Part shown: piece after piece, positions 999 to 17,309 of the stretch
Layout: the number at the start of each line of letters is the position of its first letter
Numbering within the stretch: position 1 is the first letter of the stretch
From: Prolixibacteraceae bacterium
Lineage (GTDB): Bacteria; Bacteroidota; Bacteroidia; Bacteroidales; Prolixibacteraceae
Length of the DNA stretch: 64,000 nucleotides
NCBI GenBank assembly: GCA_028683385.1
Contig: JAQUIJ010000018.1
Coordinates: 1 to 64,000, forward strand
Direction of reading: 5' to 3'
The notes under the pieces: generated by a model
The model's database searches: none
The model's input: only the letters and a program-made list of their open reading frames with translations
Told to the model about the DNA's origin: nothing
Translations under genes and position numbers: made by a program

Positions 999-1014
999 AG
1001 CTCAAAAACCACAA

Positions 1015-1848: not shown

Positions 1849-2202
1849 TGAAAAACCTATTTACCTTTTTCACCGCAATCCTGATTTCAGGAATTCTGTA
1901 TGCACAATCGCCTCAAAAAATGAGTTACCAGGCCGTTGTTCGCGATGCATCCAACAAACTGGTGGTAAACCATCAGGTAGGTATGCAAATTAGTATAGTA
2001 CAGAGTTCGGAAGACGGAAAAGTGGTTTATACCGAAATGCAAACACCAACGACCAATGCCAATGGACTGGTAAGTATAAAAATTGGGGGTGGTGCTGGTT
2101 TTACAACCATTGATTGGGCCAATGGACCTTATTTTATTAAAACAGAAACCGATCCTGCAGGAGGAACCAGTTACACGATTACCGGCGTCAGTCAATTGTT
2201 AA
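1726..2202 (+). repeat. Copy 1 of a 477-bp segmental duplication
   Basis: This stretch covers the last codons of the type IX-sorted gene and the first 118 codons or so of the next gene. It recurs at 5555-6031 at a constant offset of 3829 bases with only scattered mismatches. Identity starts abruptly at AAATTGGAAAGC and fades after the codons for SVPYALYA. Confidence 0.85.
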
Positions 2203-3911
2203 GTGTACCATATGCCCTGTATGCCGAAAAGAGTGGTTCTCCAGGTCCGCAAGGTGACAAAGGAGATAAGGGCGACAAAGGTGATCAAGGCCCGAGAGGA
2301 ATTCAAGGTTATGATGGTGCCAATGGATTAACTACCTCGGTTAATGGAGTTACACAGATAAACGGAGCTATAACCCTTACAAAATCAAACATTGGCTTAG
2401 GCAATGTTGATAATACTTCGGATGCCAATAAACCCGTCAGTTCGGACACCCAGACAGCCTTGAACCTGAAAGTTGATAAGGTAACCGGTAAAGGCTTGTC
2501 AAGCGAAGATTACTCAACTGCTGAGAAAGCAAAATTGGCAGCAATTTCGGGAGATAACACAGGTGACCAGGATTTAAGCGGCTACGCCACCACTTCAACT
2601 GTAACCAGTGGATTAGCCACCAAAGTTGACAAGGTAACCGGCAAAGGCTTGTCAAGCGAAGATTACACATCTCCTGAAAAAACTAAACTCGCTGGTATTG
2701 CCACAGGCGCAGAAGTTAACGTGCAAGCTGACTGGAATCAAGCCACAGCTACGGCAGATGATTTTATTAAAAACAAACCAACCTTGTTTACCGCTTCAGA
2801 TGAAACCGACCCTGTTTATTCTACAGATCCTGCTGCATCCATTACTGATGCCGGAAGTGGAGAAGTAATCACCAGTTCAGAAAGAACAAAACTGAATGGT
2901 ATTGAGGCTCAGGCAGAAGTTAACGTGCAAGCTGACTGGAATCAAGCCACAACAACGGCAGATGATTTTATTAAAAATAAACCTACCACTATCACTTCGG
3001 CACAGGCAACTGCTATTACAACCAATACAAGTGACATTACAAATTTGAAATCAGAGCAATTAACTCAGAATAACGCAATCGCTTTAAATACCGCTAAAAC
3101 AGGAATAACTTCGGCTCAGGCCAGTGCTATAGTTGCCAACACAGCCAAAGTAGGAATCACACCTGCCCAGGCCAGTGCCATTGTAGCAAATACAGCCAAA
3201 GTTGGCGTTACTCCCGGCACCGCAGCCGGCCAAATGCAATACTGGAACGGCTCTGCATGGGTAATAATTGCACCGGGTTCTAACGGGGCAGTGCTAACTC
3301 TTACAGGAGGTGTGCCAAAATGGAAAGTTGAACTTGCAGCAGGTGAAGTAGAAAATCCAACAACAGGTAAAATCTGGATGGATCGCAATCTTGGCGCTTC
3401 CCAAGTTGCAACAAGCAGCACCGATGTGGCTTCGTATGGCGACTTGTACCAGTGGGGGCGACTCACTGACGGACATGAAAAACGAAACTCTGCTACAACC
3501 TCTACTCGAAGCGCCAGCGACACACCCGGGCATGGTAACTTTATAACAAGATCCAGTTCTGATTGGCCTTTTGATTGGCGCAACCCGCAAAACAACAACT
3601 TATGGCAAGGTGTAAGCGGAATAAACAATCCCTGCCCAAGCGGTTACCGAGTACCAACAATAGCAGAATGGGAAGCAGAGCTCTCAAGCTGGGGCAGCCG
3701 TAATTCTGCTGGGGCTTTTGCCTCTCCGCTTAAATTGCCCTTAGCAGGCTACCGCGAATGCACTAATTCGTTTATAAATACAAGTTCATTCTATTGGTCA
3801 AGTGACTTAGATGGTGTATTTGTGTTTACGCTTAGATTTTTTGATACAAATGCCTTTAGTTCGAACTGCAACCGGGCGGATGGATGCTCTGTGCGCTGCA
3901 TTAAGGATTGA
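1848..3911 (+). CDS. Secreted collagen-like protein with Fib_succ-type C-terminal domain
   Basis: The 687-residue protein has a signal peptide (ending YAQ) and a conserved N-terminal domain (about 20-128). A collagen-like Gly-X-Y run follows (about 130-160, GPQGDKGDKGDKGDQGPRG). The centre resembles tail-fibre stalks: VDKVTGKGLSSEDY occurs twice and VNVQADWNQAT twice. The C-terminal domain runs from about 500 (GKIWMDRNLGAS, YQWGR, GYRVPTIAEWE, SVRCIKD), the pattern of the Fibrobacter succinogenes major paralogous domain. It probably forms an extended surface or matrix fibre with a globular tip. It has no type IX sorting tail of its own and directly follows, with a one-base overlap, a gene that has one. 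Its paralogue at 5677 shares the N-terminus but not the tip. Confidence 0.75.
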   Translation: MKNLFTFFTAILISGILYAQSPQKMSYQAVVRDASNKLVVNHQVGMQISIVQSSEDGKVVYTEMQTPTTNANGLVSIKIGGGAGFTTIDWANGPYFIKTETDPAGGTSYTITGVSQLLSVPYALYAEKSGSPGPQGDKGDKGDKGDQGPRGIQGYDGANGLTTSVNGVTQINGAITLTKSNIGLGNVDNTSDANKPVSSDTQTALNLKVDKVTGKGLSSEDYSTAEKAKLAAISGDNTGDQDLSGYATTSTVTSGLATKVDKVTGKGLSSEDYTSPEKTKLAGIATGAEVNVQADWNQATATADDFIKNKPTLFTASDETDPVYSTDPAASITDAGSGEVITSSERTKLNGIEAQAEVNVQADWNQATTTADDFIKNKPTTITSAQATAITTNTSDITNLKSEQLTQNNAIALNTAKTGITSAQASAIVANTAKVGITPAQASAIVANTAKVGVTPGTAAGQMQYWNGSAWVIIAPGSNGAVLTLTGGVPKWKVELAAGEVENPTTGKIWMDRNLGASQVATSSTDVASYGDLYQWGRLTDGHEKRNSATTSTRSASDTPGHGNFITRSSSDWPFDWRNPQNNNLWQGVSGINNPCPSGYRVPTIAEWEAELSSWGSRNSAGAFASPLKLPLAGYRECTNSFINTSSFYWSSDLDGVFVFTLRFFDTNAFSSNCNRADGCSVRCIKD

Positions 3912-3932
3912 TAATATTTATAATTTGCCACT

Positions 3933-3968
3933 AAACACTGCCTCATTTAAGAGAGGCAGTGTTTTACA
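3933..3968 (+). terminator. Intrinsic terminator after the collagen-like gene
   Basis: A perfect 12-bp stem, AAACACTGCCTC with GAGGCAGTGTTT, encloses an 8-base loop and ends in a short T run, 21 bases past the stop codon. Confidence 0.75.
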
Positions 3969-3999
3969 GATAAAAACCAGTATAAGTTTATAAAATCAA

Positions 4000-5436
4000 A
4001 TGTTCACTTTAAAAAGCTTAAATAGTGTAGGTGTCTTGTGCATGCTTATGCTGATTTCTCTGTTGATGAAAGCTCAGCAAACCATCACCGGGAACTTTCC
4101 AAACCTTGCCAATCAACAATTATTGTTGGTGGGTTTTAACGGTTTTGATACTTATACAATCGACAGCGTAAAGGTCAGCGAAAAAGGAATATTTCAGCTC
4201 AATTTCGGTGCGAAAGATTATGGTATGGCTTATCTGACTTCAGAAGATAATAAAGCTTTTACTGTAATACTCACTGCCGATGAGAATTTAAAACTGGTAG
4301 GGAAAACGCTGGCATCTCCTGAAACAGTGGCAATAACTTCGGGCAAACAAAACCAGCTTTTTGTGCAATATGCCACCGAACATCCCCGAAGAGAGCAAAC
4401 CTTAAGTGCATGGGATTACCTTGCAAAAATTTATAGTAAGGATTTTCTTTTCGCAGTTCATGAATTTCCCTCAAAAGCAATAGAAGAAGAAAAACAACGC
4501 ATTAAAGCCGAAGACAGCTTGTTTTTGGCAAGTTTAGCATCTGATTCTTATGTGAGTTGGTATTTGCCTGTGAGGAAAATGGTAAGCTCAGTTTCCACGG
4601 TTGCCCAGTACCGCACCAATGAAATTCCCGCTACCATAGCCGCTTTCCGCAAAATGGATTATAACGACCCACGTTTGTATAAAAGTGGTTTGTTAAAAGA
4701 TATCCTTGAAAGCCATTTTTGGCTCATCGAAAACAGTGGCCGTTCATTGGATTCGGTGTATATTGAAATGAATAAATCCATTGACTACATCGTTGAAAAT
4801 CTTTTGGCAGACGAACAAAAATTGAATGAAATAACAGAGTATTTGTTTAAAGCATTGGAAAAACGCAGTTTGTTTGAAGCCTCAGAATACCTGGCCATAA
4901 AACTATTAAACGAACAGAGTTGCACTATAAACAAAAATTTTACCGCCCAACTTGAAAGCTACCGCGCTATGAAAATTGGCAACATAGCTCCCGATTTTGC
5001 CTTCGAAAAAGATTGTTTTGCACCAGGCCACGAACCCGGAAAATTACCACAAAAACTTTCTGATATTAAAAGTAAATATACCTTGGTCGTATTTGGTGCA
5101 AGCTGGTGCCCTCAATGCCCTCAGGAACTTTCACAAATTTCCGGATTATACGAAAAGTGGAAAACACAGGGTCTGGAAGTCGTTTTTGTTTCGCTTGATG
5201 ATGACCAACAAAATTTCAAAAATTTTACAAGCATCTTCCCCTTTATCAGTGTATGCGACTACCAGAAATGGGACAGTTCTGCGGCAAAGGAATACCATGT
5301 TTTTGCCACACCTACCCTATTTTTATTAGACAACAAACAAAAGATCTTGCTCAGGCCCAACTCTGCTCAGCAATTAGATTCCTGGGTAGATTGGTATCTG
5401 GTGCAAGGGAACAAGCAAAAAGTTGGTGAACATTAA
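4000..5436 (+). CDS. TlpA-like thioredoxin-fold protein with DUF4369-like N-terminus
   Basis: The 478-residue protein has an N-terminal export signal (ending MKAQ), a beta-rich N-terminal region like DUF4369, and a helical middle. A C-terminal thioredoxin fold of the AhpC/TlpA type follows from about 325. The redox motif is SWCPQC (Cys370, Cys373), and a cis-proline is visible in FATPTLF (about 438). The family acts in the periplasm as a thiol-disulfide oxidoreductase, often reducing apocytochromes or other exported proteins. That fits an organism with very Cys-rich exported cytochromes nearby, but it is not in that operon and faces the opposite way, so the link is only a suggestion. It sits between two collagen-like genes and after a terminator. 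Confidence 0.8.
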   Translation: MFTLKSLNSVGVLCMLMLISLLMKAQQTITGNFPNLANQQLLLVGFNGFDTYTIDSVKVSEKGIFQLNFGAKDYGMAYLTSEDNKAFTVILTADENLKLVGKTLASPETVAITSGKQNQLFVQYATEHPRREQTLSAWDYLAKIYSKDFLFAVHEFPSKAIEEEKQRIKAEDSLFLASLASDSYVSWYLPVRKMVSSVSTVAQYRTNEIPATIAAFRKMDYNDPRLYKSGLLKDILESHFWLIENSGRSLDSVYIEMNKSIDYIVENLLADEQKLNEITEYLFKALEKRSLFEASEYLAIKLLNEQSCTINKNFTAQLESYRAMKIGNIAPDFAFEKDCFAPGHEPGKLPQKLSDIKSKYTLVVFGASWCPQCPQELSQISGLYEKWKTQGLEVVFVSLDDDQQNFKNFTSIFPFISVCDYQKWDSSAAKEYHVFATPTLFLLDNKQKILLRPNSAQQLDSWVDWYLVQGNKQKVGEH

Positions 5437-5554
5437 TAGATTGACAAAGTCCGGGATCATTGAGTTAAAATCGAAATTAATGGAAACCTATAATGACTGA
5501 AAATCAGATCCGGATCGTGGACGGCTTCGCCAGTTAAATTATTTAGTATCCAGG

Positions 5555-5677
5555 AAATTGGAAAGCTACGAAACACAGATCGTCATGGTAAATCTGGTAC
5601 CTGAAACCTATTTACTGGAAGTATTCGACCAAAACAAAATTGTAAAATCATTTAAAATCATAAAAAGATCACTCTGA
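5555..5677 (+). pseudogene. Orphan type IX sorting-signal tail (broken duplicate)
   Basis: This is an in-frame copy of the last 40 codons plus stop of the gene at 1345 (KLESYETQ ... KIIKRSL). It has no start codon and no upstream coding part. It arrived as part of the 477-bp duplication and keeps the same overlap with the following ATG at 5677. It is not expected to be translated. Confidence 0.8.
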
Positions 5678-6031
5678 TGAAAAACCTATTTACCTTTTTC
5701 ACCGCAATCCTGATCTCAGGAATTCTGTTTGCACAATCGCCTCAAAAAATGAGTTATCAGGCCGTTGTTCGCGATGCATCCAACAAACTGGTGGTAAACC
5801 ATCAGGTAGGTATGCAAATTAGTATAGTACAGAGTTCGGAAGACGGAAAAGTGGTTTATACCGAAACGCAAACACCAACGACCAATGCCAATGGACTGGT
5901 AAGTATAAAAATTGGTGATGGTGCTGGTTTTGCAAGCATTGATTGGTCTGCCGGACCTTATTTTATTAAAACAGAAACCGATCCTGCAGGAGGAACCAGT
6001 TACACGATTACCGGCGTCAGTCAATTGTTGA
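5555..6031 (+). repeat. Copy 2 of the 477-bp segmental duplication
   Basis: This is nearly identical to 1726-2202 (offset 3829 bases). Differences are few, for example TATGCA against TTTGCA at the signal-peptide end. The sharp left edge lies inside a reading frame, which indicates a DNA-level duplication or gene conversion and not gene-by-gene evolution. Confidence 0.85.
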
Positions 6032-7575
6032 GCGTTCCCTATGCCTTGTATGCAAAAAATTCGGGCAGCTCAATTCCCGGACCACAAGGAGAACAAGGAA
6101 TCCAAGGAGAGAAAGGAGTCCGGGGAGAAAGGGGCATTCAAGGCGAGACAGGTGCTACTGGTCCACAAGGCGTTACTGGAGCCGACGGACAAGATGGTGT
6201 TGGTGGTGTAACACAAGTGGTCAATACAAGTATTTTATCATTAACAGGTACCGGAACAGTTGCCGACCCATATATTATTGATGCCAACGAAACCGACCCT
6301 GCTGTAGCTGCAAACTTTGATTTTACCGGAGCAGCCAATGGTGATTTATTGCAATTTAACGGAACAAAATGGGTAAAAGTAACTCCTGATTATATTTCGG
6401 ATTACACCGTTACCGAAAGTGATGTAACAGACCAACAAGCCGCTTTAAGAGTTACCGAAAGTCAAATCAGCGATTTGCAATCATATTTAACGAGTGAAAC
6501 CGACCCTGCCGTAACAGCAAACTTTGATTTTACCGATGCCGCCGCCGGAGATTTATTACAATTCAACGGAACAAAATGGGTAAAAGTAACTCCTGATTAT
6601 ATTTCGGATTACACCGTTACCGAAAGTGATGTAACAGACCAACAAGCCGCTTTAAGAGTTACCGAAAGTCAAATCAGCGATTTGCAATCATATTTAACGA
6701 GTGAAACCGACCCTGCCGTAACAGCAAACTTTGATTTTACCGATGCCGCCGCCGGAGATTTATTACAATTCAACGGAACAAAATGGGTAAAAGTAACTCC
6801 TGATTATATTTCGGATTACACCGTTACCGAAAGTGATGTAACAGACCAACAAGCCGCTTTAAGAGTTACCGAAAGTCAAATTAGCGATTTAGACCACTTT
6901 ACAACAGCCGATGAAACCGACCCTGTTTATTCTGCATGGGATAAAGACTACGAAGATTTAATCAACAAACCAAGTATTCCGACCGCCGCCAATGGCTCCG
7001 AGACCATAGTTACAGCCGGAACGAACATAACCGTTACAGGAACAGGTACAACTGCAAGCCCTTATGTGGTTAATGCAACAGGAGCAACACCTCTTTTCAT
7101 TGGCCAAAGCTACCAGGGTGGTATTATATTTTGGTTAGATGCCACGGGGCAGCACGGTTTAATAGCAGCCACTGCCGACCATAGTGCGGCGATACAATGG
7201 TGGAATGGCACGAATAGATCCACAGGTTCAACCGGAGATGGATTATATGCAGGTAAAATGAATACGGCTATGATAGTAGCTGCCCAAATGACAGATAACC
7301 AAACTGGCAATTTTGCAGCAAAAGTTTGTGCCAATTATTCCGTTATAGATGGAGGCGTTTTGTATGGCGACTGGTATTTACCATCAGAATACGAATTAAA
7401 CCTTCTATTTTTGCAAAAGGATATAGTTGGCGGTTTTGTTGGCGATTGGTATTGGAGTTCCAAGGAGGCGACCTTTTATATAGCGTATGCACGTTTACAG
7501 AGATTCAGCGACGGCGCTACCACTGAGTATTACAAGGAACAAACTCACTCTGTGCGTGCAATTCGGTCTTTTTAG
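5677..7575 (+). CDS. Secreted collagen-like protein with 69-residue repeats and Lcl/DUF1566-type tip
   Basis: The 632-residue protein shares its signal peptide and N-terminal domain (1-118) almost exactly with the protein at 1848. A longer collagen-like Gly-X-Y run follows (about 130-168, GPQGEQGIQGEKGVRG). Two full and one partial copies of a 69-residue unit come next (205-about 405, beginning ETDPAV), and then a C-terminal domain (about 478-632). That domain shows YQGGIIFWLD, WYLPSEYELN and YWSSKE, the pattern of Lcl/DUF1566 domains found on collagen-like adhesins. It is likely a surface fibre or adhesin whose length changes by repeat number. No type IX tail is present. A different tip on the same base suggests domain shuffling between the two paralogues. 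Confidence 0.75.
   Translation: MKNLFTFFTAILISGILFAQSPQKMSYQAVVRDASNKLVVNHQVGMQISIVQSSEDGKVVYTETQTPTTNANGLVSIKIGDGAGFASIDWSAGPYFIKTETDPAGGTSYTITGVSQLLSVPYALYAKNSGSSIPGPQGEQGIQGEKGVRGERGIQGETGATGPQGVTGADGQDGVGGVTQVVNTSILSLTGTGTVADPYIIDANETDPAVAANFDFTGAANGDLLQFNGTKWVKVTPDYISDYTVTESDVTDQQAALRVTESQISDLQSYLTSETDPAVTANFDFTDAAAGDLLQFNGTKWVKVTPDYISDYTVTESDVTDQQAALRVTESQISDLQSYLTSETDPAVTANFDFTDAAAGDLLQFNGTKWVKVTPDYISDYTVTESDVTDQQAALRVTESQISDLDHFTTADETDPVYSAWDKDYEDLINKPSIPTAANGSETIVTAGTNITVTGTGTTASPYVVNATGATPLFIGQSYQGGIIFWLDATGQHGLIAATADHSAAIQWWNGTNRSTGSTGDGLYAGKMNTAMIVAAQMTDNQTGNFAAKVCANYSVIDGGVLYGDWYLPSEYELNLLFLQKDIVGGFVGDWYWSSKEATFYIAYARLQRFSDGATTEYYKEQTHSVRAIRSF
6289..6891 (+). repeat. Tandem 207-bp in-frame repeat
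   Basis: Units start at 6289, 6496 and 6703 with exactly 207-bp spacing. Units 2 and 3 are nearly identical at the DNA level. Unit 1 differs mainly in its first third (GAANGD against DAAAGD). The third unit departs from the pattern after the codons for SQISDL. Copy number is likely variable between strains. Confidence 0.85.
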
Positions 7576-7688
7576 CCAATTATTTATTTAACCGCTAAAT
7601 GGTCTGTTTTTTCAAACTAACATGGAGTTAATATCCTTGTCGGTTTATTTTTAGAAAATGAATAAAAAACTCGTGGAAAATCAGAACC

Positions 7689-7754
7689 GGTGTTTATCTG
7701 TTATTCGTGAAAGACAATGAACGGATACAATCATTTAAAATTCAGTTAAGGTAG
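7689..7754 (+). pseudogene. Second relic of a type IX sorting tail
   Basis: Twenty-one codons plus stop read GVYLLFVKDNERIQSFKIQL and end in Arg-TAG. This is the terminal strand pattern of a type A sorting domain (GxYLL ... SFKI). An in-frame stop lies about ten codons upstream and no gene body precedes it, so it appears to be the decayed end of a lost gene. Confidence 0.5.
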
Positions 7755-7778
7755 TAGTTAACGATACAAAACAATTCT

Positions 7779-7814
7779 AAAAAATCCGGTGCCCGAAAAG
7801 CATCGGATTTTTTT
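7779..7814. terminator. Bidirectional terminator between convergent genes
   Basis: The stem AAAATCCG(G)TGC pairs with GCA(T)CGGATTTT, with an A run on the left and a T run on the right. It can end both the rightward collagen-like gene and the leftward cytochrome operon, whose last stop is at 7830. Confidence 0.7.
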
Positions 7815-7829
7815 GTGACTGTGAGTAGA

Positions 7830-9452
7830 TTAAAACCTTTGGGTGAGGCTTACATAGATGCTGTGGTACTTGTTCGATTTATCGAAAGTGCCATCGTAAT
7901 TGGCTGAAAAATACATTTTCTTGCTGATTTGCCAGGAGAGTTCCAAAGCTGCCATGTGTTGCAGGGACCGTGGTCCAGAAGTGGCATTCAGGTATCTATT
8001 ATCAACCAACCGGTAATTGATTCCAGCACTCAACTTCGAAGGAACAAGTTCTTTATCCACTTGAACACCGTAAATCATTCCGTCGACATAGCTTGACTTA
8101 ATCCAGTTGGTCGAGAATGTGACCGATGAATTGATTCCGGGCACTTTGGAGAACGTTAAAAAGCCATTGACATTGAGCATCGGATGGATGTCGTTTTTCT
8201 GGAAACGATATCCTCCCGTTAAACTTGAGCTGATCAAATTCGATGGCCGGTAATTGATCCGAAGTTGGTATCCCTGCCTGGTGGCATCCTGTAACAACAG
8301 ATCGAGGTAGTTTTTAAACGTTTCGTAGTAAATTACGTTTTTACGTGCGTCATATGAAAGGTAAGCCGACAGTTGTTTGGAAACCCGGTAGCGTAACGAA
8401 AGATAAAGGCTCGTTAAACTAATTGTATTGGTTGGAACGCTGTCTTTCAATGCGTATAAGTCTACATCAGCCGAGACAAACAGGTTGATGTTTTTAATCA
8501 GTGAATTGTCGTGCTGAAAGTACGCGAAGCGTCGGTCGGTCATTCCGTGGCTCGTTTGTTGAAAAAACGCCAGCGAAGTCGACATGTTGCCCGCTTTGTT
8601 GTTGATTTCGTGCGATACGTAGCCACCGTATTCGAAAAGTTTGGGATTGAAACTGTAATCGGTATAGTCAGGGCTGGTTCCGGCAACTGCCCCAAAAGTG
8701 AAATTTCCGGCTTTCGTTTCAGCTTGTAAGCCATCAATGGCGCCAATGCTGGCAATTTTGGGATTTATTTTCCGGCCAACTGCAATTTGTGTTTTGTTGG
8801 TCACATCATAGTTTACCGACAAGCTATAGATTTTAAGCGCGTTGAAAATATTATTCTGGACAGTAGCCCACTCATTGAGCTTATGAGTAAACGTAATGTA
8901 GGTGTCTGTCGAAATTCTACCTCCTGAAATATGATCGGCCGAAAGCGTAAAAGTGTACCTCATTCGCTGGTTAAAATCCGATGTATTCGAGAAACTTGAA
9001 TAGGATGAGGCCGACAATCGTCCCCTGATTTTCTCCGCTCTTTCTGATCCGGGTAATGATTTGGCCGGAAGTTTCGATTCAGGACTTTGAATAGAATCAG
9101 TTCTGAGGCTTGAAGGTCCGGTAGGGATTTTATCTTTTATTGGCGCAGACTTTGGCGATTTTTTAACTTTGATGACAACAACGTCTGAAACTTTAATGTC
9201 GGTTTTAGCAATAGGCTTGCCGACACACGAAAGTGAAGATACCGATTCGGTGACAAACAGTGGAACTAAAGCCTGATCCTTCCGGATAAAGACGGTATCG
9301 CCGGGCTGCACCAATCCTGAAGTTTCAAACTTCACGTAAATATTCTGAAGGGTAATGTATGAAACTTTTCCTTCAGCAATTGGCCGATCCTCTTGCCCGT
9401 AAAGATTCAATATTGATAATGTCACTATGAAAATTAAAAAGCACCTCTTCAT
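7830..9452 (-). CDS. Outer-membrane beta-barrel, last gene of the multihaem operon
   Basis: The 540-residue protein has a signal peptide (1-20, ending NLYGQ) and a small N-terminal beta domain (about 25-95) that includes NIYVKFE and PGDTVFI. A Lys/Pro/Ser-rich linker (about 95-145) leads to about 390 residues of alternating polar and hydrophobic strands ending in LTQRF. The terminal aromatic residue is typical of outer-membrane barrels. It has no CxxCH motif. Following two secreted multihaem cytochromes by 44 bases, it is the natural candidate for the porin sheath of a porin-cytochrome conduit. I do not recognise it as a homologue of MtrB or the Geobacter porins. It could instead be a general barrel protein of unknown role. 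Confidence 0.65.
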   Translation of the reverse strand: MKRCFLIFIVTLSILNLYGQEDRPIAEGKVSYITLQNIYVKFETSGLVQPGDTVFIRKDQALVPLFVTESVSSLSCVGKPIAKTDIKVSDVVVIKVKKSPKSAPIKDKIPTGPSSLRTDSIQSPESKLPAKSLPGSERAEKIRGRLSASSYSSFSNTSDFNQRMRYTFTLSADHISGGRISTDTYITFTHKLNEWATVQNNIFNALKIYSLSVNYDVTNKTQIAVGRKINPKIASIGAIDGLQAETKAGNFTFGAVAGTSPDYTDYSFNPKLFEYGGYVSHEINNKAGNMSTSLAFFQQTSHGMTDRRFAYFQHDNSLIKNINLFVSADVDLYALKDSVPTNTISLTSLYLSLRYRVSKQLSAYLSYDARKNVIYYETFKNYLDLLLQDATRQGYQLRINYRPSNLISSSLTGGYRFQKNDIHPMLNVNGFLTFSKVPGINSSVTFSTNWIKSSYVDGMIYGVQVDKELVPSKLSAGINYRLVDNRYLNATSGPRSLQHMAALELSWQISKKMYFSANYDGTFDKSNKYHSIYVSLTQRF

Positions 9453-9496
9453 TCAATCCTTTCTGTTAGTTTCTCCAAATCTTCTGATCTCTCTCC

Positions 9497-12415
9497 TTAA
9501 TCTCCTTTTCCTGTTGGATGACATCGATAACACCCAGCACTGCCTTGACTTTGGTTATGAGCTCTCGCATGACATGCAGATGTTACACAAGTGAATACGG
9601 TATAATTTGTTGGCGTTGTATGGCAGGTTGCGCAGCTAATATTGGTGTGCTTTCCGCTCGATATGGGGAAATATGTTGTATGATTAAATGTCGAAGGTAC
9701 CCAGGCTGTTGTTTTATGACAGGATGCACAGTCCGTTGAAAACCCCGAGGTTTTATGTACCGGATTTTTGGTATTGTTATAGTCTGTGGTATGACATGCA
9801 TAACAAGTGTTCGGTGTTGAAGTATAATTTCCGTTGTGGCATGCAGCACAGTTATTGGCAATAGAGGCATGTGCACCGGTTAATGCATAATAGGTACTGT
9901 GAATGGGGAATGTAGCTGGCTGCCATCCGGGATTTGTAGTATGACAATCAGTACATGTAACCGACAATCCCAAAGTCTTATGGTTTGGATTAGCTGCTGA
10001 ATTGTAATTGGTTTGATGGCAGCTTTTGCATTCCATGGATGTTCCGGCATAACCTGTCGTATGGCAGCTTGCACAGTCAACGGTTGTGTGGGCGCCAGTC
10101 AATGGGAAATTGGTTGCTGAATGATTGAAAGTCGCGCCCAACCAGTTATTATTGTTGTGGCACAAGGTACAATCGGTCGGGAACTTGGAAGCCACATGAC
10201 CCTTCGCGCCATTGTATTGAGTCTGATGACAGGAAATACAATCTGGTTTTGCCGAAGTTGTATTGCCTGCGTGACACGACGAACATTGAACAATAGCGGC
10301 ATGTGCTCCGGCTAAAGTAAATCCGGTAGAGCTGTGTTTAAACGATGAAGGTTGCCAGGCCGTAGTGGTATGGCAAGTTTTGCAATCTACTGAAATTCCG
10401 GCGGCAGTGTGGTTTGGAGCCTGTGCAGTGTTGTATTTTGCCTGATGACAACTTTTACATTCCATAGATGTTCCGGCATAACCTGTAGTGTGGCAGCTTG
10501 CACAATCAACGGTTGTGTGAGCACCTGTCAATGGAAAATTGGTTGCTGAATGGTTGAACACAGCATTAAGCCAGTTATTATTGTTGTGACACAAGGTACA
10601 ATCAGTCGGGAACTTGGAAGCCACATGACCCTTTGCGCCATTGTATTGAGCCTGATGACAGGAAATACAATCTGGTTTTGCAGAAGTTGTATTACCTGCG
10701 TGACACGACGAACATTGAACAATAGCTGCATGTGCTCCGGCTAAGGTAAATCCGGTAGAGCTGTGTTTAAACGATGAAGGTTGCCAGGCCGTAGTGGTAT
10801 GGCAAGTTTTGCAATCTACTGAAATTCCGGCGGCAGTGTGGTTTGGAGCCTGTGCAGTGTTGTATTTTGCCTGATGACAGCTTTTACATTCCATGGATGT
10901 TCCGGCATAACCCGCTGTGTGGCAACTTGCACAATCAACGGTTGTGTGAGCACCTGTCAATGGGAAATTGGTTGCTGAATGGTTGAACACAGCATTAAGC
11001 CAGTTATTATTGTTGTGACACAAAGTACAATCGGTTGGGAACTTGGAGGCCACATGTCCTTTAGCGCCGTTATACTGAGCCTGATGGCAGGAAATACAAT
11101 CTGGTTTTGCTGAAGTGGTATTGACTGCGTGACACGACGAACATTGAACAATAGCTGCATGTGCTCCGGCTAAAGTAAATCCCGTAGAACTATGCTTAAA
11201 CGATGAGGGTTGCCAGGCCGTAGTGGTATGGCAAGTTTTGCAATCTACTGAAATTCCGGCGGCAGTATGGTTTGGAACCTGTGCCGTATTGTATTTTGCC
11301 TGATGACAACTTTTGCATTCCATGGATGTTCCGGCATATCCAGTTTTATGGCAGCTTGCACATTCAACGGTTGTATGAGCACCTGTCAATGGGAAATTGG
11401 TCGAAGAATGATTGAAAGTTGAACCAGTCCAATTATTTAAATTGTGGCATATACGACAATCGGTCGGGAATTTGGAAGCCACATGTCCTTTAGCGCCGTT
11501 ATACTGAGTTTGGTGGCAGGAAATACATTCAGGTTTTGCCGAAGTGGTATTGCCGAGGTGACACGACGAACATTGAACGACCGTTGCGTGTGCGCCTGTC
11601 AATGGGAAATTGGTGTTACTATGGTTAAAGGTTGACGTTTTATAATCAACTATCGTATGACAGCTTTTGCAATCCGTAGAAATTCCTGCCTTTAAATGGT
11701 TGGGAATCTGAGTTGCGTTGTAATTGGTCTGATGGCAGCTTATACATTCCGTAGACAATTTCTGGTAAGTTCCACCGGTATGACATTGCACGCAACTGAT
11801 ATTATGACCTCCGGTAAGTGGGAAAACACTATGGTCGAAGTTAGTTGTTGCCCAGGCAGTGGATTTTACCCCATGGCAATCGGTACAATTCGTTGAATAT
11901 CCCAGTTTTTGGTGATTTGGGGAAGTGGTGCCCAAGTAATCTTTTTTGTGGCAATCCACACATTCAACGCCCAAAGGTTCAAATTTCAGGTTGGTCGATG
12001 ATTTATGGCAAGATGCACAATCAGTAACCGCATGGTTGCCTTCCAACGGGAAACGGCTTAACTGGTGCATGGTTTTGGTATTTTCAATAATCCATGTTTT
12101 GGGAGTATGGCAGCGTGCACAATCGGGTCCGAGCGTATTGGTGTGCATATCCGTATGACAGGCCACACACTCCGTTTTTGCTTCCTGAAATTTCAACGTT
12201 TGGTGGCAACTTTTACAATCTACTGTTTGGTGTTGACCGGTAAGTTTGAATTTTGTGGTATTGTGATCAAACGACATATCAGCTTTTGTCACTTTCCAGG
12301 TGTCGGCATTGTGGCACGAAGCGCAATCGATTTTAAATCCGTCACCATGCGGCGATTGGGCAAAACCAACGAGGACAGAAAATAGGAATAAAATTAAATA
12401 TGACAGCTTGTACAT
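9497..12415 (-). CDS. Giant secreted multihaem c-type cytochrome (about 40 haems)
   Basis: The 972-residue protein has a signal peptide (ending GFAQ). I counted 39 CxxCH motifs by eye plus one CX4CH (CVTSACH) near the C-terminus, so up to 40 covalent haems. Many extra His residues sit in repeated NHSxTNFPLTGAH and PNHTAAGI segments and could be the distal ligands. The centre consists of near-identical 143-residue units with six CxxCH each. The last 60 residues (from FPISSGKH to CYRCHPTGKGD) match a C-terminal module I recall from large multihaem cytochromes of Ignavibacteria and Bacteroidetes. It overlaps the upstream 20-haem gene by 22 bases. Predicted location is the periplasm or cell surface, working as a long electron wire or capacitor. 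Haem maturation genes are not in this window. Confidence 0.85.
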   Translation of the reverse strand: MYKLSYLILFLFSVLVGFAQSPHGDGFKIDCASCHNADTWKVTKADMSFDHNTTKFKLTGQHQTVDCKSCHQTLKFQEAKTECVACHTDMHTNTLGPDCARCHTPKTWIIENTKTMHQLSRFPLEGNHAVTDCASCHKSSTNLKFEPLGVECVDCHKKDYLGTTSPNHQKLGYSTNCTDCHGVKSTAWATTNFDHSVFPLTGGHNISCVQCHTGGTYQKLSTECISCHQTNYNATQIPNHLKAGISTDCKSCHTIVDYKTSTFNHSNTNFPLTGAHATVVQCSSCHLGNTTSAKPECISCHQTQYNGAKGHVASKFPTDCRICHNLNNWTGSTFNHSSTNFPLTGAHTTVECASCHKTGYAGTSMECKSCHQAKYNTAQVPNHTAAGISVDCKTCHTTTAWQPSSFKHSSTGFTLAGAHAAIVQCSSCHAVNTTSAKPDCISCHQAQYNGAKGHVASKFPTDCTLCHNNNNWLNAVFNHSATNFPLTGAHTTVDCASCHTAGYAGTSMECKSCHQAKYNTAQAPNHTAAGISVDCKTCHTTTAWQPSSFKHSSTGFTLAGAHAAIVQCSSCHAGNTTSAKPDCISCHQAQYNGAKGHVASKFPTDCTLCHNNNNWLNAVFNHSATNFPLTGAHTTVDCASCHTTGYAGTSMECKSCHQAKYNTAQAPNHTAAGISVDCKTCHTTTAWQPSSFKHSSTGFTLAGAHAAIVQCSSCHAGNTTSAKPDCISCHQTQYNGAKGHVASKFPTDCTLCHNNNNWLGATFNHSATNFPLTGAHTTVDCASCHTTGYAGTSMECKSCHQTNYNSAANPNHKTLGLSVTCTDCHTTNPGWQPATFPIHSTYYALTGAHASIANNCAACHNGNYTSTPNTCYACHTTDYNNTKNPVHKTSGFSTDCASCHKTTAWVPSTFNHTTYFPISSGKHTNISCATCHTTPTNYTVFTCVTSACHARAHNQSQGSAGCYRCHPTGKGD
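10100..11386 (-). repeat. Three tandem 429-bp units inside the 40-haem cytochrome gene
   Basis: The landmark CAATGG(G)AAATTGGT recurs at 10100, 10529, 10958 and 11387, exactly 429 bp apart. Each unit encodes 143 residues with CKTCH, CSSCH, CISCH, CTLCH, CASCH and CKSCH-type sites. The three units are almost identical in DNA, while the copies on both flanks are diverged. This points to recent unequal crossing-over. Confidence 0.9.
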
Positions 12416-13986
12416 TGCCTATCAGTGTTTTTGTATTGTATGAACGGAACAATTGTCGAATTATTTTGATGGTGACATTTCCTGCAGTCAACATTCTTAT
12501 GTCCACCATCCAATTTAAACCGGGTTTTGTTGTGGTCAAAGCGTTCGGCCTTCCAGTTATCAAATCCGTGGCAAACGGCACAGTCGGTTGATCCGTTGGT
12601 GCTAAATTGTTTCTGATGCACATCGGTATGGCAGCTTTCGCAATTAGGCTTCAAATCAGAAAAAACCTGGGTAACCTGACTCGAATTGACTTTTTTGAAG
12701 TGGCAATCACGGCATGATGCTTCCGCATGTTTCCCTTTCAATTCAAATGTAGTGATTTTGTGATCGAATGTTACTTTGACCCAGTCGTTTACCGTATGAC
12801 ATTTATCACACCGGCCTTCGGGAATAAATTTGGGGTCGATAAAATTCTTGTGAATATTCTCGTGACAGGCCGAACAGTTTTTATCCAGACCGCGGAATTT
12901 CCAATCCTCTCCCTTTTTATGACAGGTCAGGCATGGAATCGCCAAATGAGCACCTTCAAGTTTAAACTGCCCCTTATTGTGTTGCTCTATGGTAAACGAT
13001 GTCTCTTTGTAGCTATTCTCATTGTGACAGTCTTTGCAGTCTGACTTAGGATTCTGCCTTGTAAATTGTCCGTTGTGGTAATCTTTATGGCAATTGTTGC
13101 AAAGGTCGTGTTTAATCGGGGTGGTTAAACTGCCTTTGTGACAAGCCTTACAATCAACAGTTTGGTGTTTCCCTTTCAGTAGGAAATTGGTTTTGCTATG
13201 GTCAAAAGTTTTTATTCCTGAAATCTGGTGAAACGATTCTTCGGAATGGCATTTGCGGCAATCGTTTCCGAATTTATTATCGTGAACATCTTTATGACAG
13301 GCGGTGCAGTTATTAAAAGCAATACCTGAAAATTTCTGAACGTCCTGCCCGTTTTTCTTTTCCATCGGGTGACATTTGAGGCAGGCGACATCAGCATGTT
13401 TTCCGCGGAGAGGGAATTTGGTGGTCTGATGGTCAAATTTTTTGGTCGTTTTAAACGAATCAAACGAATGGCAATTTATACAGTTGGTGGGCAAAGTCCC
13501 CTGATGATAATCTTTGTGGCAACTTAAGCATTCGGTACTCAAGCCAAGAAAAGTCATCTTTTTCTTTCGGATTGCCGGATCTTTAATATTCTCGGCTTTA
13601 TGGCAATCCACGCATTGTTTTCCCTTGTGTTTTCCTTCCACCACAAAGCCTGCATCCTTGTGGTCAAATTTTGTTTTATCCAGATGTACAATGTCATATT
13701 TTCGCGTGAGGTGGTCGCTGTGACAAGCAATACAATTTTTCCCACTCACTTTTGGCGATGCATGAAATCCCTTTTTCTGATCAATCCGCACTTTTAACTC
13801 TTTGTGGCAGGCCAAGCACTTTTGATCCGAAACATGTTCGCCTAAATCATGACATTGGGTGCAGTTCGACATTCCTTCGAGATGGGCATGTGGCTCTGCC
13901 AATTCACCAGGTGATATTTGTCCTGAAGCCATCAAGCTTAAGAATAGAAATGCCAGAGAGATTTGTAGGTGAATTATCAATTTCAT
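12394..13986 (-). CDS. Secreted 20-haem c-type cytochrome
   Basis: The 530-residue protein (from the ATG at 13986) has a signal peptide (ending MASGQ) and exactly 20 CxxCH motifs by my count. These are spaced through repeated HxxxxxxLxGKHxxxxCxxCH segments of the cytochrome c3/c7-like type, such as LKGKHQTVDCKACH. A two-residue longer TTG start at 13992 is possible, but ATG gives a better signal peptide. It lies 9 bases after the flavoprotein gene and overlaps the 40-haem gene by 22 bases. Its place between the membrane components and the larger cytochrome suggests a periplasmic carrier that takes electrons from the inner membrane. The alternative is a second surface cytochrome. Confidence 0.85.
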   Translation of the reverse strand: MKLIIHLQISLAFLFLSLMASGQISPGELAEPHAHLEGMSNCTQCHDLGEHVSDQKCLACHKELKVRIDQKKGFHASPKVSGKNCIACHSDHLTRKYDIVHLDKTKFDHKDAGFVVEGKHKGKQCVDCHKAENIKDPAIRKKKMTFLGLSTECLSCHKDYHQGTLPTNCINCHSFDSFKTTKKFDHQTTKFPLRGKHADVACLKCHPMEKKNGQDVQKFSGIAFNNCTACHKDVHDNKFGNDCRKCHSEESFHQISGIKTFDHSKTNFLLKGKHQTVDCKACHKGSLTTPIKHDLCNNCHKDYHNGQFTRQNPKSDCKDCHNENSYKETSFTIEQHNKGQFKLEGAHLAIPCLTCHKKGEDWKFRGLDKNCSACHENIHKNFIDPKFIPEGRCDKCHTVNDWVKVTFDHKITTFELKGKHAEASCRDCHFKKVNSSQVTQVFSDLKPNCESCHTDVHQKQFSTNGSTDCAVCHGFDNWKAERFDHNKTRFKLDGGHKNVDCRKCHHQNNSTIVPFIQYKNTDRQCTSCHI

Positions 13987-13995
13987 GCTCAATCT

Positions 13996-15330
13996 TTAAT
14001 CATGCTTTAAAACGGCTTCTCCAAATTTTTTGTCAACTCTAATTCCTGCCTTTTCCAGAAACTGGGTTGGAAGTTCACCTCCGGCAAAAATATAAACCTG
14101 GTCGTTTTCCAAATCAGTTACTTCGCCTGAAAGCAAATCAACGATTTTAACTTTATCATCTTCAATTGATTTCAGGTTGGTGTTAAACCTGACATCGATT
14201 TGCTTCTGCGCAATCGCTTCCTTTATTTTTTGATTATTTCCAACTTTTATTCTTCCAAAAGATTCCCCGCGGTACGAAAGTGTAACCTGATTTTGGTCCA
14301 TTAAAAGTAAAGCAGTTTCAATGGCTGAGTCTCCGCCACCGACAACAACTATTTTTTTGTCTGAGATTAATTCAGGTTCGAGTAATCGGTAAGCTACTTT
14401 TTCACTCATTTCACCCGGAATATTCAGTTTTCTCGGTGTTCCTCTTCGGCCAATTGAAAGGAGTACCTTTCTTGTCGTAAACTGCTCTTTGGAAGCCGTC
14501 TCAACTACAAATCGTTTGTCCTGAAAAACAATACTTTCCACTTTCGATTGTTCTTTAATTACAATCTCATTTTTCCCCAAAACATTGTTCCATAAATCGA
14601 GTAATTCCATTTTGGTCGTTTCGCGGAGTTTTACCTTGCCATAAAGTGGAATATCCATGGGTGAGGTCATCACAATTTTTTTTCGGGGGAAGGTAAAAAC
14701 TGTTCCGCCCAGAGAATCCTGCTCCAAAGTTATTGCTTTCAGATTGTGTTTCTTTGCAGTGAGTGAAGCTGAAATACCAGCAGGTCCGGCACCAATAATA
14801 ATGATGTCGTAATCGGCCTGAATGTGTTTGTCTATTTTTTTTGCCAGATTTTCAACAGCCTGTTTTCCTTGTTCAACGGCATTTCGAATCAGTCCCATTC
14901 CTCCTATTTCGCCGGCAATATAAATACCCGGAACGTTGGTTTCGAACGATTGATCAACATGTGGAATATCGACACCACGCTTTTCCGTTCCGATACACAG
15001 CGTAATAGCATGAGTCGGGCAAGCGTGAAAACAGGCGCCATGACCCACGCAATGCGATGCATTAATGGTAGTTGCCTTTCCGTTTAAAATGCCCAGTATG
15101 TCATGTTCCGGACAAGCGGAGATACAAGCTCCTGTTTGAATGCAGGAATTGACGTCAACTACAGGGTGCAATGAAACGGGCTCGTGCAATCCCTCTTCCT
15201 TTGCAATTTTGATCTTTTCTTCAACTATTTTCGAGTTTTTCTTTTCCTTCCGAACATAGAAATACACGATCGAAACAAAGAGAATTGCGATGAATGAATA
15301 GATGACAATATTTTCAGTTAAAACTTCCAT
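13996..15330 (-). CDS. Membrane-anchored ferredoxin-flavoprotein oxidoreductase, apparently circularly permuted
   Basis: The 444-residue protein has one N-terminal membrane helix (8-26), a charged linker, and a two-motif ferredoxin domain (63-104). An FAD site IIGAGPAG follows (178-185), then an NAD(P) site VVGGGDSA (329-336). The ferredoxin motifs are Cys63-x5-Cys69-x3-Cys73 and Cys94-x5-Cys100-x3-Cys104, so the usual second Cys is Thr66 in one and His97 in the other. The segment TNVPGIYIAGEIGG (131-144), which normally closes the FAD fold at the C-terminus of thioredoxin-reductase-like enzymes, lies here before the FAD site, and the C-terminus ends where it would be expected. The likely role is electron exchange between NAD(P)H and the cytochrome b encoded just upstream (8-base gap). 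Direction of flow is unknown. Confidence 0.75.
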   Translation of the reverse strand: MEVLTENIVIYSFIAILFVSIVYFYVRKEKKNSKIVEEKIKIAKEEGLHEPVSLHPVVDVNSCIQTGACISACPEHDILGILNGKATTINASHCVGHGACFHACPTHAITLCIGTEKRGVDIPHVDQSFETNVPGIYIAGEIGGMGLIRNAVEQGKQAVENLAKKIDKHIQADYDIIIIGAGPAGISASLTAKKHNLKAITLEQDSLGGTVFTFPRKKIVMTSPMDIPLYGKVKLRETTKMELLDLWNNVLGKNEIVIKEQSKVESIVFQDKRFVVETASKEQFTTRKVLLSIGRRGTPRKLNIPGEMSEKVAYRLLEPELISDKKIVVVGGGDSAIETALLLMDQNQVTLSYRGESFGRIKVGNNQKIKEAIAQKQIDVRFNTNLKSIEDDKVKIVDLLSGEVTDLENDQVYIFAGGELPTQFLEKAGIRVDKKFGEAVLKHD

Positions 15331-15338
15331 TTTACGAT

Positions 15339-16211
15339 TTAAAAAATCCAGTGAGCACCAAAAGTAATCGCCACACCAACATGGATAAGCATAATAATCA
15401 GCATAAGCAATGCAAATGGCAAATGCGCCACATGCCAGTATTTAAATAGGTTTTGCATGGAGATCAAGCGGTCAATTTTCCGATTCAGGCTAATTTCATC
15501 TTTGATAAGCCTGATAACCTCTTTATATCCTTTCCCATTGATATTGTTATGTTTCATAATTTCTTTTACTTCACTGACAGTTCGGCGTTCGAATTTATAT
15601 TTGGCAATACTTCGTGCCAACATGCTGCTTCCCGTTCTGTCGGGGCGTTTTTTTACAGCATTCAAAATATCTTCAAGAGCCATTTCTTCGATGTGATATA
15701 CTGTGACGAGTTTTTTGTTTAGTTCATCTTTGATTTGATTAATCTCGTTCAGGTTCATTTCACGACCTTCAATGGTTCTTGGAATTTGAAGGTAAATGTA
15801 TCGGCCAATCACCCCACTCAAAACTACAGCAATCATACTCCAGAAACTGACAGCAACCAGTCCGCCAAACTTGAAAGCTGTATGGTAAAGCACTAATATA
15901 GGACCGAGTGTGCAGAGAAAGATATGAAATTCGAGCCAGTATTTTAAAACGCCAATTCGCGAAAACTTACTGACTCGTTTACGAAGCATGTAGGTCGCCA
16001 CACCAACAAGCATAAGAAATGAACCGAGTATCCCTAATGTGTGGCCCATAAAACCACTTGGCTTTAGTGTTTGATTATCAGGATGAAAGAACCGATTTTC
16101 AACGCCCAAAGAATAGTAAGAGTACCCATGGTAGGCCAAAAATGAAGTTGCTAGTACTACAACCAAAATAAGAAATCCGATATAAATCCGGTGAATACTG
16201 ATCCCTCCCAT
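15339..16211 (-). CDS. Di-haem membrane cytochrome b, first gene of the operon
   Basis: The 290-residue protein has about five hydrophobic helices (roughly 8-28, 55-76, 92-112, 118-140, 262-284) and a charged cytoplasmic-type loop of about 115 residues before the last helix. His96 and His110, and His263 and His277, form two pairs spaced 14 apart on separate helices. This is the classic bis-His layout for two b haems stacked across a membrane, as in cytochrome bc1 cytochrome b. I do not recognise the family. It leads the operon, so it is the probable quinone-linked or flavoprotein-linked membrane step that passes electrons to the periplasmic cytochromes. The long loop may dock the flavoprotein encoded next. 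Confidence 0.7.
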   Translation of the reverse strand: MGGISIHRIYIGFLILVVVLATSFLAYHGYSYYSLGVENRFFHPDNQTLKPSGFMGHTLGILGSFLMLVGVATYMLRKRVSKFSRIGVLKYWLEFHIFLCTLGPILVLYHTAFKFGGLVAVSFWSMIAVVLSGVIGRYIYLQIPRTIEGREMNLNEINQIKDELNKKLVTVYHIEEMALEDILNAVKKRPDRTGSSMLARSIAKYKFERRTVSEVKEIMKHNNINGKGYKEVIRLIKDEISLNRKIDRLISMQNLFKYWHVAHLPFALLMLIIMLIHVGVAITFGAHWIF

Positions 16212-16835: not shown

Positions 16836-17309
16836 ATGAAAAAGAGAAATTTGTTTGTTCAATTGATGTTAATAGTTTTTACGATGATTTCTATTAGCGT
16901 TTGGGCTGGTAACGAAGAATCTTTTAATTCGATTCATAAGATCTCCCCCGATCTGAATTTTAGTCCTAGTTCCAGCTTCCAGAAAAGTTGGGAAATTGCT
17001 TATGGTGAGTCAAAAACACCTGTTCGTGTTTTCATGAAGGAAACTAAAAAAGGACAGGAATATTTGGTTCGTACCAAGTACTTCGAAGTGAAATATGTGA
17101 ATGGTTCTGCTGGTTTTGGTGCCAGAGCGGTAAGTGAAGCTGATCGTACGGTCAGTGAAGCTTTAAATGAAGCCGTATTAAATCAAACTCAGCTAAATGG
17201 CCAGAAATGTATTAGCCCAGAAGCGATTGGAAGCGACCAGGTTCTGGAAATGATTGCCAGCTATCTTCCCGATTTGCTCAATGAACAGTACATCAGCATC
17301 CTAAATTAG
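16836..17309 (+). CDS. Small exported protein of unknown function
   Basis: The 157-residue protein has a clear signal peptide (1-24, ending SVWAG). The mature part is soluble and acidic-to-neutral with a single Cys (in GQKCISPE), and has no repeat or sorting tail. I do not recognise the family. The segment VFMKETKKGQEYLVRTKYFEV suggests a short beta-sheet domain followed by a helix. It stands alone between its own promoter and a strong terminator, so it is a monocistronic unit. It is divergent from the cytochrome operon, and co-regulation from the shared 624-base region is possible but unproven. Confidence 0.7.
   Translation: MKKRNLFVQLMLIVFTMISISVWAGNEESFNSIHKISPDLNFSPSSSFQKSWEIAYGESKTPVRVFMKETKKGQEYLVRTKYFEVKYVNGSAGFGARAVSEADRTVSEALNEAVLNQTQLNGQKCISPEAIGSDQVLEMIASYLPDLLNEQYISILN

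Follow-up and report, generated by a model that had tools for sequence, protein, structure and literature searches.

A five-gene cluster of Bacteroidota with PCC3-type architecture, a probable electron conduit across the cell envelope

Five adjoining leftward open reading frames (ORFs) at positions 7830-16211 of a 64,000-nucleotide stretch of Prolixibacteraceae DNA (assembly GCA_028683385.1, contig JAQUIJ010000018.1; hereafter the window, contig C22 of the 54 contigs of a 5.9 Mb genome) encode a di-haem membrane cytochrome b, a membrane-anchored ferredoxin-flavoprotein, two multihaem cytochromes c (CytA and CytB) and an outer-membrane beta-barrel. Together, these genes probably specify a single PCC3-type conduit for electrons across the envelope, running from the NAD(P)H side to the outside of the cell with a net flow that is usually outward, and the probability of this reading is put at about 60%. 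It is built on gene content, gene order, conservation, motifs, haem numbers and repeat units.

As judged by the published descriptions on which the likeness rests, the architecture is of the PCC3 type, so that the system is not a categorically new one. An initial annotation of the window had regarded the cluster as undescribed. This did not hold for the architecture, which matches PCC3 (PMC5566968), and giant secreted cytochromes were already known from Saprospiraceae (PMC11495043). What does look new, within the literature searched, is the constant presence of the flavoprotein, the occurrence of two gene orders, the spread across Bacteroidota (Bacteroidales and Saprospiraceae to Ignavibacteria) and a rule governing the length of CytB. 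Neither a paper on PCC3-type extracellular electron transfer in Bacteroidota nor the length rule (3n+1 haems) was found in that literature, from which subscription papers, preprints and supplements were excluded.

The gene cluster and its products

An ORF check of the window placed all five genes on the reverse strand. In the order of transcription, they encode the cytochrome b (290 residues, 15339-16211), the flavoprotein (444 residues, 13996-15330), CytA (532 residues from a TTG start, 12394-13992), CytB (972 residues, 9497-12415) and the barrel (540 residues, 7830-9452). The intergenic spacings are 8, 9, -22 and 44 bases, the 9-base gap being counted from an in-frame ATG at 13986, two codons after the TTG, which is the probable real start of the CytA gene. 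These coordinates and gaps reproduce those given by the initial annotation, and its estimate of about 60 c-type haems is borne out by 60 sites, namely 20 CxxCH motifs in CytA and 39 CxxCH motifs plus one CX4CH (9569-9589, near the C-terminus) in CytB.

The CxxCH counts far exceed those in 500 shuffled sequences, which averaged 0.25 (maximum 2) for CytA and 0.5 (maximum 3) for CytB. Both proteins fall in the Pfam cytochrome c7/c3 families and contain exactly two cysteines per haem site (40 and 80, respectively), while the 47 histidines of CytA and the 80 of CytB, exactly two per haem in the latter, suffice for bis-His ligation at all sites. CytA is a probable periplasmic wire, and CytB, composed of repeated tri-haem units, a probable outward wire. 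Matches of CytB to beta-lactamase-named NCBIfam models were considered spurious and put down to its Thr/Ala-rich repeats.

The cytochrome b includes W92x3H96x13H110 in the third helix (residues 92-110, 15882-15938), S132GxxG136, and W259x3H263x13H277 in the fifth helix (residues 259-277, 15381-15437), which is the motif set published for the inner-membrane proteins (IMPs) of PCC3 and PCC4. The probable haem b ligands H96 and H110 are present in 108 of 108 homologues, and H263 and H277 in 107 with a gap in the remaining one; the complete set of two WX3HX13H motifs and SGXXG is kept in 105. Nothing above cut-off was found for this protein in Pfam or NCBIfam, a PDB sequence search was empty, and none of 53 pattern matches in the viral contigs searched was a relative. 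Positively charged stretches at residues 77-90 and ~137-145 suggest that the long loop preceding the fifth helix lies in the cytoplasm, and the flavoprotein would sit on that side.

For the barrel, the size of which the initial annotation had named as a point to check, AlphaFold2 predicts 22 strands from residue 141 onward, following an N-terminal beta domain and a linker modelled with low confidence (17-sequence alignment, mean pLDDT 78, pTM 0.62, strands counted from the element list). The barrel matches no Pfam family, no NCBIfam porin model reaches its cut-off, and a search of PDB sequences returned a single meaningless match (E 0.34). In complete clusters, the barrel gene comes after a cytochrome gene.

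Comparison with PCC3 and other conduits

PCC3 was first noted in iron-oxidising Proteobacteria and is described from Alpha-, Beta- and Gammaproteobacteria as a porin, extracellular and periplasmic cytochromes, and an IMP (He et al. 2017, PMC5566968). In that account, the IMP is a five-helix di-haem inner-membrane protein of ~300 residues with WX3HX13H twice and SGXXG; the extracellular cytochromes carry a median of 34 haems (up to 85) and the periplasmic ones a median of 21; and the cytochromes have 22-39 residues per haem (median 26) with T/S/A/G-rich repeats. Compared by description, the present cluster has the same set of porin, giant extracellular and periplasmic cytochromes, and IMP motifs. 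The 22-strand model belongs to a gene adjoining those for multihaem cytochromes, and the IMP motifs occur in the window protein and 105 of 108 homologues. The haem numbers (20 or 23 in CytA, 10-82 in CytB) agree with the PCC3 values of about 21 and about 10-85 as numbers, with the locations of the two proteins being the probable ones. There are 24.3 residues per haem in CytB and 26.6 in CytA, and CytB is built of tandem units with a composition of 14% T, 9% S, 10% A and 6% G.

The two systems differ in that the ferredoxin-flavoprotein is constant here, in addition to the four genes making up PCC3 as described by He et al. (PMC5566968). The cluster further has gene orders of its own, a CytB that follows 3n+1, and a barrel of 22 predicted strands as opposed to up to 42 in PCC3. 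Haem numbers of the periplasmic protein in the PCC3 of Gallionellaceae are 21, 24 and 27, again in steps of three, as compared with 20 or 23 in CytA, and the extracellular protein there takes many values between 10 and 35 that do not follow 3n+1 (PMC10734462). For Sideroxydans CL21, PCC3 is termed functionally unverified (PMC12442390).

The logic of a barrel plus a multihaem cytochrome is shared with MtrCAB, MtoAB and PioAB; here, however, the barrel has no Pfam family and no CymA-type gene is found among the five. The decahaem model TIGR03508 was matched at 40.5 and 28.7 bits, as compared with a cut-off of 192.2, and membership of MtrAB, MtoAB or PioAB was rejected. A porin accompanied by several cytochromes is likewise a feature of the Geobacter OmbB-OmaB-OmcB and Ext systems and of the Bacteroidetes_1 cluster. 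Matches to the Geobacter models ExtN/ExtO (CytA, 48 bits against a cut-off of 200), GSU2203 and GSU2204 (barrel, 8e-6, 24.8 bits against 350) were weak and all far under their cut-offs, and no homology is claimed for them. The view of the initial annotation that no part resembles Mtr, Omc or CymA proteins is upheld, with neither an NCBIfam porin model nor the decahaem model at cut-off. The Bacteroidetes_1 cluster has a different make-up, its seven genes comprising six cytochromes and one barrel (PMC8258643). Porin-cytochrome clusters of other porin types have been reported from Ignavibacteria (PMC7399161), and secreted proteins with very many haems from Saprospiraceae, with more than 100 motifs in Bacteroidota, are listed in a section of PMC11495043 that gives no gene cluster for them.

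Conservation and distribution

Conserved five-gene synteny, the other check named by the initial annotation, was found. The flavoprotein is encoded in single copy in each of 25 of the 101 genomes searched, the source genome included. Regions were taken around 23 of the 24 matches in other genomes; order and strand of the five genes are unchanged in 17 of them, and the other 6 reach a contig end first. A flavoprotein profile scan of GTDB gave at least 547 relatives, and among the best 80, which were kept, 56 loci show the five genes in order, a count that permits intervening genes or several CytB-like genes. Another 23 end too early, and one (L116) is long enough but is without cytochrome genes.

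In a sample of 395 Bacteroidota genomes, 35 gave a match to the barrel, 40 to the cytochrome b and 39 to the flavoprotein. Every one of the 35 barrel genomes has the cytochrome b (Fisher p 4e-45, ignoring relatedness). As for the five genomes with the cytochrome b and no barrel match, three have a weak barrel match in place, one ends inside cytB and one has an unmatched 605-residue ORF at that place. A probable conduit of the PCC3 type, described from Proteobacteria in the literature consulted, is thereby extended to about one tenth of the sampled Bacteroidota, cultured hosts included.

The five-gene set occurs in Bacteroidales (Maribellus luteus, Mangrovibacterium lignilyticum), Saprospiraceae and Ignavibacteria. 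In Phaeodactylibacter xiamenensis (Saprospiraceae, L090), the two cytochromes carry 23 and 82 haems. The single record matched by the barrel in the plasmid collection is from Emticicia oligotrophica, whose plasmid pEMTOL02 (L131, 8821-21474) carries the whole set with 23 and 40 haems and an adjoining cytochrome c assembly gene. A conduit on a plasmid of a cultured species could transfer between hosts and could be studied in the laboratory. Two gene orders are found, cytochrome b-flavoprotein-CytA-CytB-barrel, as in the window, and cytochrome b-CytA-CytB-barrel-flavoprotein in a second subtype; the flavoprotein is hence a constant fifth gene with two alternative positions.

Haem numbers of CytA and CytB

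Haem numbers were compared in 73 of the 83 distinct barrel loci (window included), these being the ones in which the barrel is preceded by exactly two cytochrome genes; L039, L042, L058, L065, L124, L130, L142, L146, L156 and L157 were left out. CytA has 20 haems in 63 clusters and 23 in another 7; the remaining 3, with broken frames or a disturbed order, have fewer. CytB ranges from 10 to 82 haems and follows 3n+1 in 67 of the 73 clusters, the exceptions being L085 (30 haems), L092, L127 and L128 (12), L108 (11) and L126 (order disturbed, last cytochrome with 23). The exceptions to either rule (L076, L085, L092, L108, L126, L127, L128 and L153) were retained in the count, and numbers from draft genomes may be underestimates where repeats have collapsed.

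In the window, Tandem Repeats Finder detected an array in cytB (10014-11578) with a 429-bp unit, equal to 143 residues and six haems, in 3.6 copies with 90% matches. The orthologue in genome G012 has one 143-residue, six-haem unit fewer (34 haems), and the other four operon proteins of that genome are 95-99% identical to those of the window. A tree of 70 clusters was built from the other three proteins, after L076, L126 and L153 had been dropped for a broken or disordered CytA; on this one 70-tip tree, Fitch parsimony requires a minimum of 3 changes in haem number for CytA and 48 for CytB, with only 5 in the CytB remainder modulo 3. Because of the tandem array, the orthologue shorter by one unit, the 3n+1 counts, and the 48 changes as compared with 3, it is concluded that CytB consists of tri-haem units that are gained or lost whole and that CytA is kept nearly constant. 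Assembly artefact as the source of CytB length was set aside, as the gene encodes 34 haems in the single-contig genome G012 and 40 in the Emticicia record, whose title calls it complete. Gain or loss of motifs in pairs or multiples had been suggested earlier for giant cytochromes (PMC7399161). With natural variants of 10-82 haems in otherwise similar operons, conduction and reach could be measured against wire length.

A fixed CytA with a variable CytB is the pattern expected if one protein bridges a fixed distance and the other is under no such constraint. It also bears on the possibility that the giant cytochromes serve as a capacitor in or on the cell, a charge store or periplasmic sink, with the barrel used for export or anchoring. 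Sixty haems within one operon would suit such a role, storage has been raised by the authors of PMC11495043 and PMC10734462, and flavoprotein-IMP-cytochrome trios without a giant wire do occur. However, a constant CytA next to a varying CytB suggests two spans rather than one store, and all barrel genomes of the phylum sample have the cytochrome b, which makes storage as the main function very unlikely.

The ferredoxin-flavoprotein

The flavoprotein consists of an N-terminal hydrophobic helix, a two-cluster ferredoxin and a YpdA/thioredoxin-reductase-like FAD/NAD(P) domain (Pfam Pyr_redox_3, 8e-42; Fer4_10, 2e-9), the closest solved chain in a PDB sequence search being YpdA/Bdr 7a7b (E 1e-37). 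The ferredoxin motifs, encoded at 15019-15144, are unusual. They read CxxTxxCxxxCP and CxxHxxCxxxCP in the window and C-x2-[T/S]-x2-C-x3-CP and C-x2-H-x2-C-x3-CP in the alignment, with the six cysteines and His97 invariant among the 112 homologues. At position 66, T or S is found in 102 of these, while 9 have Cys there and 1 has Ala. Such motifs would be compatible with a three-iron cluster or with a four-iron one that has His or another group as a ligand.

The redox cysteine of YpdA is presumably that in the GxGPxG motif. The corresponding position 184 is Ala in 109 of the 112 homologues and never Cys, and the invariant cysteines are confined to the ferredoxin part, with none in the FAD domain. 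Therefore, although the FAD/NAD(P) domain resembles those of the bacillithiol disulfide reductase YpdA/Bdr and of thioredoxin reductase, the protein lacks a redox cysteine in this domain, has an added membrane anchor, and is not a disulfide reductase of the YpdA type. It may be a missing piece of PCC3-type conduits, the entry point for NAD(P)H.

Related modules on plasmids

Distant relatives of the IMP (21-31% identity) were found on plasmids of Alteromonas, Variovorax, Qipengyuania, Glaciecola, Bradyrhizobium, Methylophaga and Pontibacter, in all seven cases between a gene annotated as a 2Fe-2S/FAD oxidoreductase and one for a 7-haem cytochrome. Residues ~24-265 of CytA match such 7-haem-type proteins at 24-26%. 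Unlike the clusters in Bacteroidota, these trios have no giant wire and no directly adjoining barrel gene, with a phosphate-selective-porin gene lying a few genes upstream in Glaciecola. The two trio flavoproteins tested (Alteromonas and Pontibacter) match FAD_binding_6, NAD_binding_1 and Fer2 and are hence of the ferredoxin-reductase type, not the YpdA type. A Sphingobium plasmid encodes an IMP with the full motif, a thioredoxin-reductase-type flavoprotein with ferredoxin domains and a 10-haem cytochrome. Given the contents of the trios and of this plasmid, the same kind of IMP and c-type cytochrome appear to be joined to different flavoproteins, and the combination of a cytoplasmic flavoprotein, an IMP and a c-type cytochrome thus recurs.

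Neighbours of the trios include hydrogenase genes (Alteromonas, Glaciecola) and copper/heavy-metal genes (Variovorax, Qipengyuania, Methylophaga). The latter would suit a special-purpose, non-respiratory surface reductase, used in acquisition of ferric iron or haem or in detoxification of oxidants or metals, in the manner of a eukaryotic ferric reductase or NADPH oxidase extended by a wire. He et al. (PMC5566968) drew a comparison between the IMP motif and ferric-reductase domains, and the distribution is patchy, with 25 carriers among the 101 genomes. Nevertheless, up to 82 haems would be a heavy investment for assimilation, and the recurrent neighbours of the Bacteroidota clusters, among those tested, are only a CcsA-like and a GW-like gene, other neighbours not having been systematically annotated. 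A role of this kind is considered decidedly unlikely. In the Alteromonas and Glaciecola plasmids (L132, L135), the trio lies directly upstream of a NiFe hydrogenase operon, possibly forming a hydrogen-to-NAD(P) link across the membrane.

Proposed electron path and its direction

The initial annotation had read the parts and their order as a path from the cytoplasm to the cell surface, with which the data are consistent. The flavoprotein would be held by its one-helix anchor with its domains in the cytoplasm, where electrons would be exchanged between its iron-sulfur clusters, FAD and either NAD(P)H or ferredoxin. The next carriers would be the two b haems of the cytochrome b, stacked across the inner membrane, followed by the 20-haem CytA, which would bridge the periplasm. 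From CytA, the electrons would travel through the 22-strand barrel, or along it, and reach CytB, which would be a linear wire of tri-haem units of species-dependent length. We infer the locations of CytA and CytB, the formation of a complex, this path, its direction and NAD(P)H as the donor from the features described above. The outward direction is favoured with modest confidence because an NAD(P)H-dehydrogenase-like module feeds the conduit; the sinks for reducing power would be minerals, humics, electrodes or other cells. This hints at a part in extracellular redox reactions for the Bacteroidota that live in groundwater, sediment and sludge.

A bolder form of the proposal, held tentatively and at somewhat under even odds, is that the width of the periplasm holds CytA at 20 (or 23) haems, and that CytB acts as a modular ruler, which recombination between tandem repeats lengthens or shortens in tri-haem steps (3n+1 haems, with n from 3 to 27), so tuning how far electrons reach beyond the cell. 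The conduit would then be a widespread, NAD(P)H-coupled one of the PCC3 type in Bacteroidota, with a His-ligated or three-iron cluster of the ferredoxin adapted to this task.

Several observations weigh against a complete conduit with outward flow. The structural model of the cytochrome b was discarded as too poor (pLDDT 66), and the five helices are not borne out by a good model. Among the 50 Foldseek matches listed for the barrel, there were generic barrels only (FimD, MOMP, TonB-dependent receptors; query TM at most 0.48), and no homology is claimed. Neither a lipobox, sought by eye, nor the Pfam domain Por_Secre_tail, either of which could have accounted for export of CytB, was found in either cytochrome. 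The full PCC3 motif is present in 0 of the 7 trio IMPs, which have two or more HX13H (7 of 7) and SGXXG (5 of 7). The locus L116 (Ignavibacteria CG2_30_36_16, 1005-3869) comprises the cytochrome b, a 217-residue gene and the flavoprotein, with no multihaem gene beside them. Genome G359 has an extra orphan barrel (L161, C26 10456-11883) with two in-frame stops and no gene of the system beside it, together with a full second-subtype cluster elsewhere.

The last case touches on a barrel conserved without cytochromes, which the initial annotation had named as evidence that would tell against its proposal. No such case was seen at the genome level, where 35 of 35 barrel genomes carry the cytochrome b, but stray loci do occur. 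Besides that of G359, its congener G477 has, in addition to a second-subtype barrel elsewhere, an extra CytB-barrel pair (L160, C11 326-3402; 18 CxxCH, outside the haem-number count) without the other three genes, and G240 has a remnant (L152, C56 2866-3988) in which a cytochrome b with in-frame stops stands directly before the last 94 residues of a barrel, as if the middle genes had been deleted. The five genes are thus mostly, though not always, retained and lost as a unit.

The respiratory gene content of the carriers also has to be taken into account. A haem-copper oxidase family match was found in 24 of 25 carriers and 45 of 76 non-carriers (p 0.0004) and, outside the genus of the source genome, in 15 of 16 and 31 of 62, respectively (p 0.001); these counts accept matches up to an E of 0.001, of which 2 among the 69 are under the curated cut-off, are uncorrected for relatedness, and refer to a family that includes nitric oxide reductases. 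The source genome itself has six such matches. Carriers are therefore mostly respiring types, and the role of electron sink for a strict fermenter is disfavoured as the main one. Respiring hosts fit electron disposal at low oxygen as well as uptake for oxygen, and the wire could serve the latter.

In the case of uptake, electrons would enter the conduit from Fe(II), minerals or partner cells, which would be oxidised at the surface, and would reach quinone via the cytochrome b, with the flavoprotein making reducing power from part of them. Hosts of an aerobic type exist, namely Phaeodactylibacter xiamenensis and Emticicia oligotrophica. Uptake is further suggested by the role in Fe(II) oxidisers proposed for PCC3 (PMC5566968) and, in Sideroxydans CL21, by the significant up-regulation with iron-oxidising ability of the inner-membrane gene of one of its two PCC3 copies (PMC12442390). 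On the other hand, a flavoprotein of the NAD(P)H/ferredoxin type is constant in the Bacteroidota clusters. Reduction of NAD(P) with surface donors such as Fe(II) is energetically uphill, and none of the named Bacteroidota hosts is known as an iron oxidiser. Uptake as the usual direction is hence considered unlikely, and outward flow remains the preferred reading.

Neighbouring genes and a second cytochrome cluster

No sixth conserved gene was accepted, as the candidates, a GW-domain-like gene downstream (15 of 77) and a CcsA-like haem lyase gene upstream (9 of 102), are not universal. The gene for the GW-like small protein, not present in the window, lies immediately after the barrel gene in L040, L043, L045, L056, L064, L065, L079, L081, L085, L088, L091, L094, L097, L104 and L131. 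In the Ignavibacteria-like loci L117, L130 and L159, genes of ~200 residues similar to that of L116 separate the cytochrome b from the next gene.

A scan of the window with the -33/-7 promoter pattern of Bacteroidota gave 3 matches as compared with 4.6 expected, none of them upstream of the operon. Divergent from the operon, at 16836-17309, lies a gene for a 157-residue protein with no Pfam family above cut-off, and homologues of this gene adjoin the operon in four congeneric genomes (L027, L028, L029 and L035).

The source genome carries a second cytochrome cluster on another contig (C17:119000-138000, L050, locus 2020-11750). It encodes a 7-haem c7/c3 protein, a cytochrome b561, a 960-residue, 19-haem protein with a b561-like part, a NapC/NirT-type 6-haem protein, a 4-haem protein at the site of a c554 match and a ResB/CcsA assembly protein.

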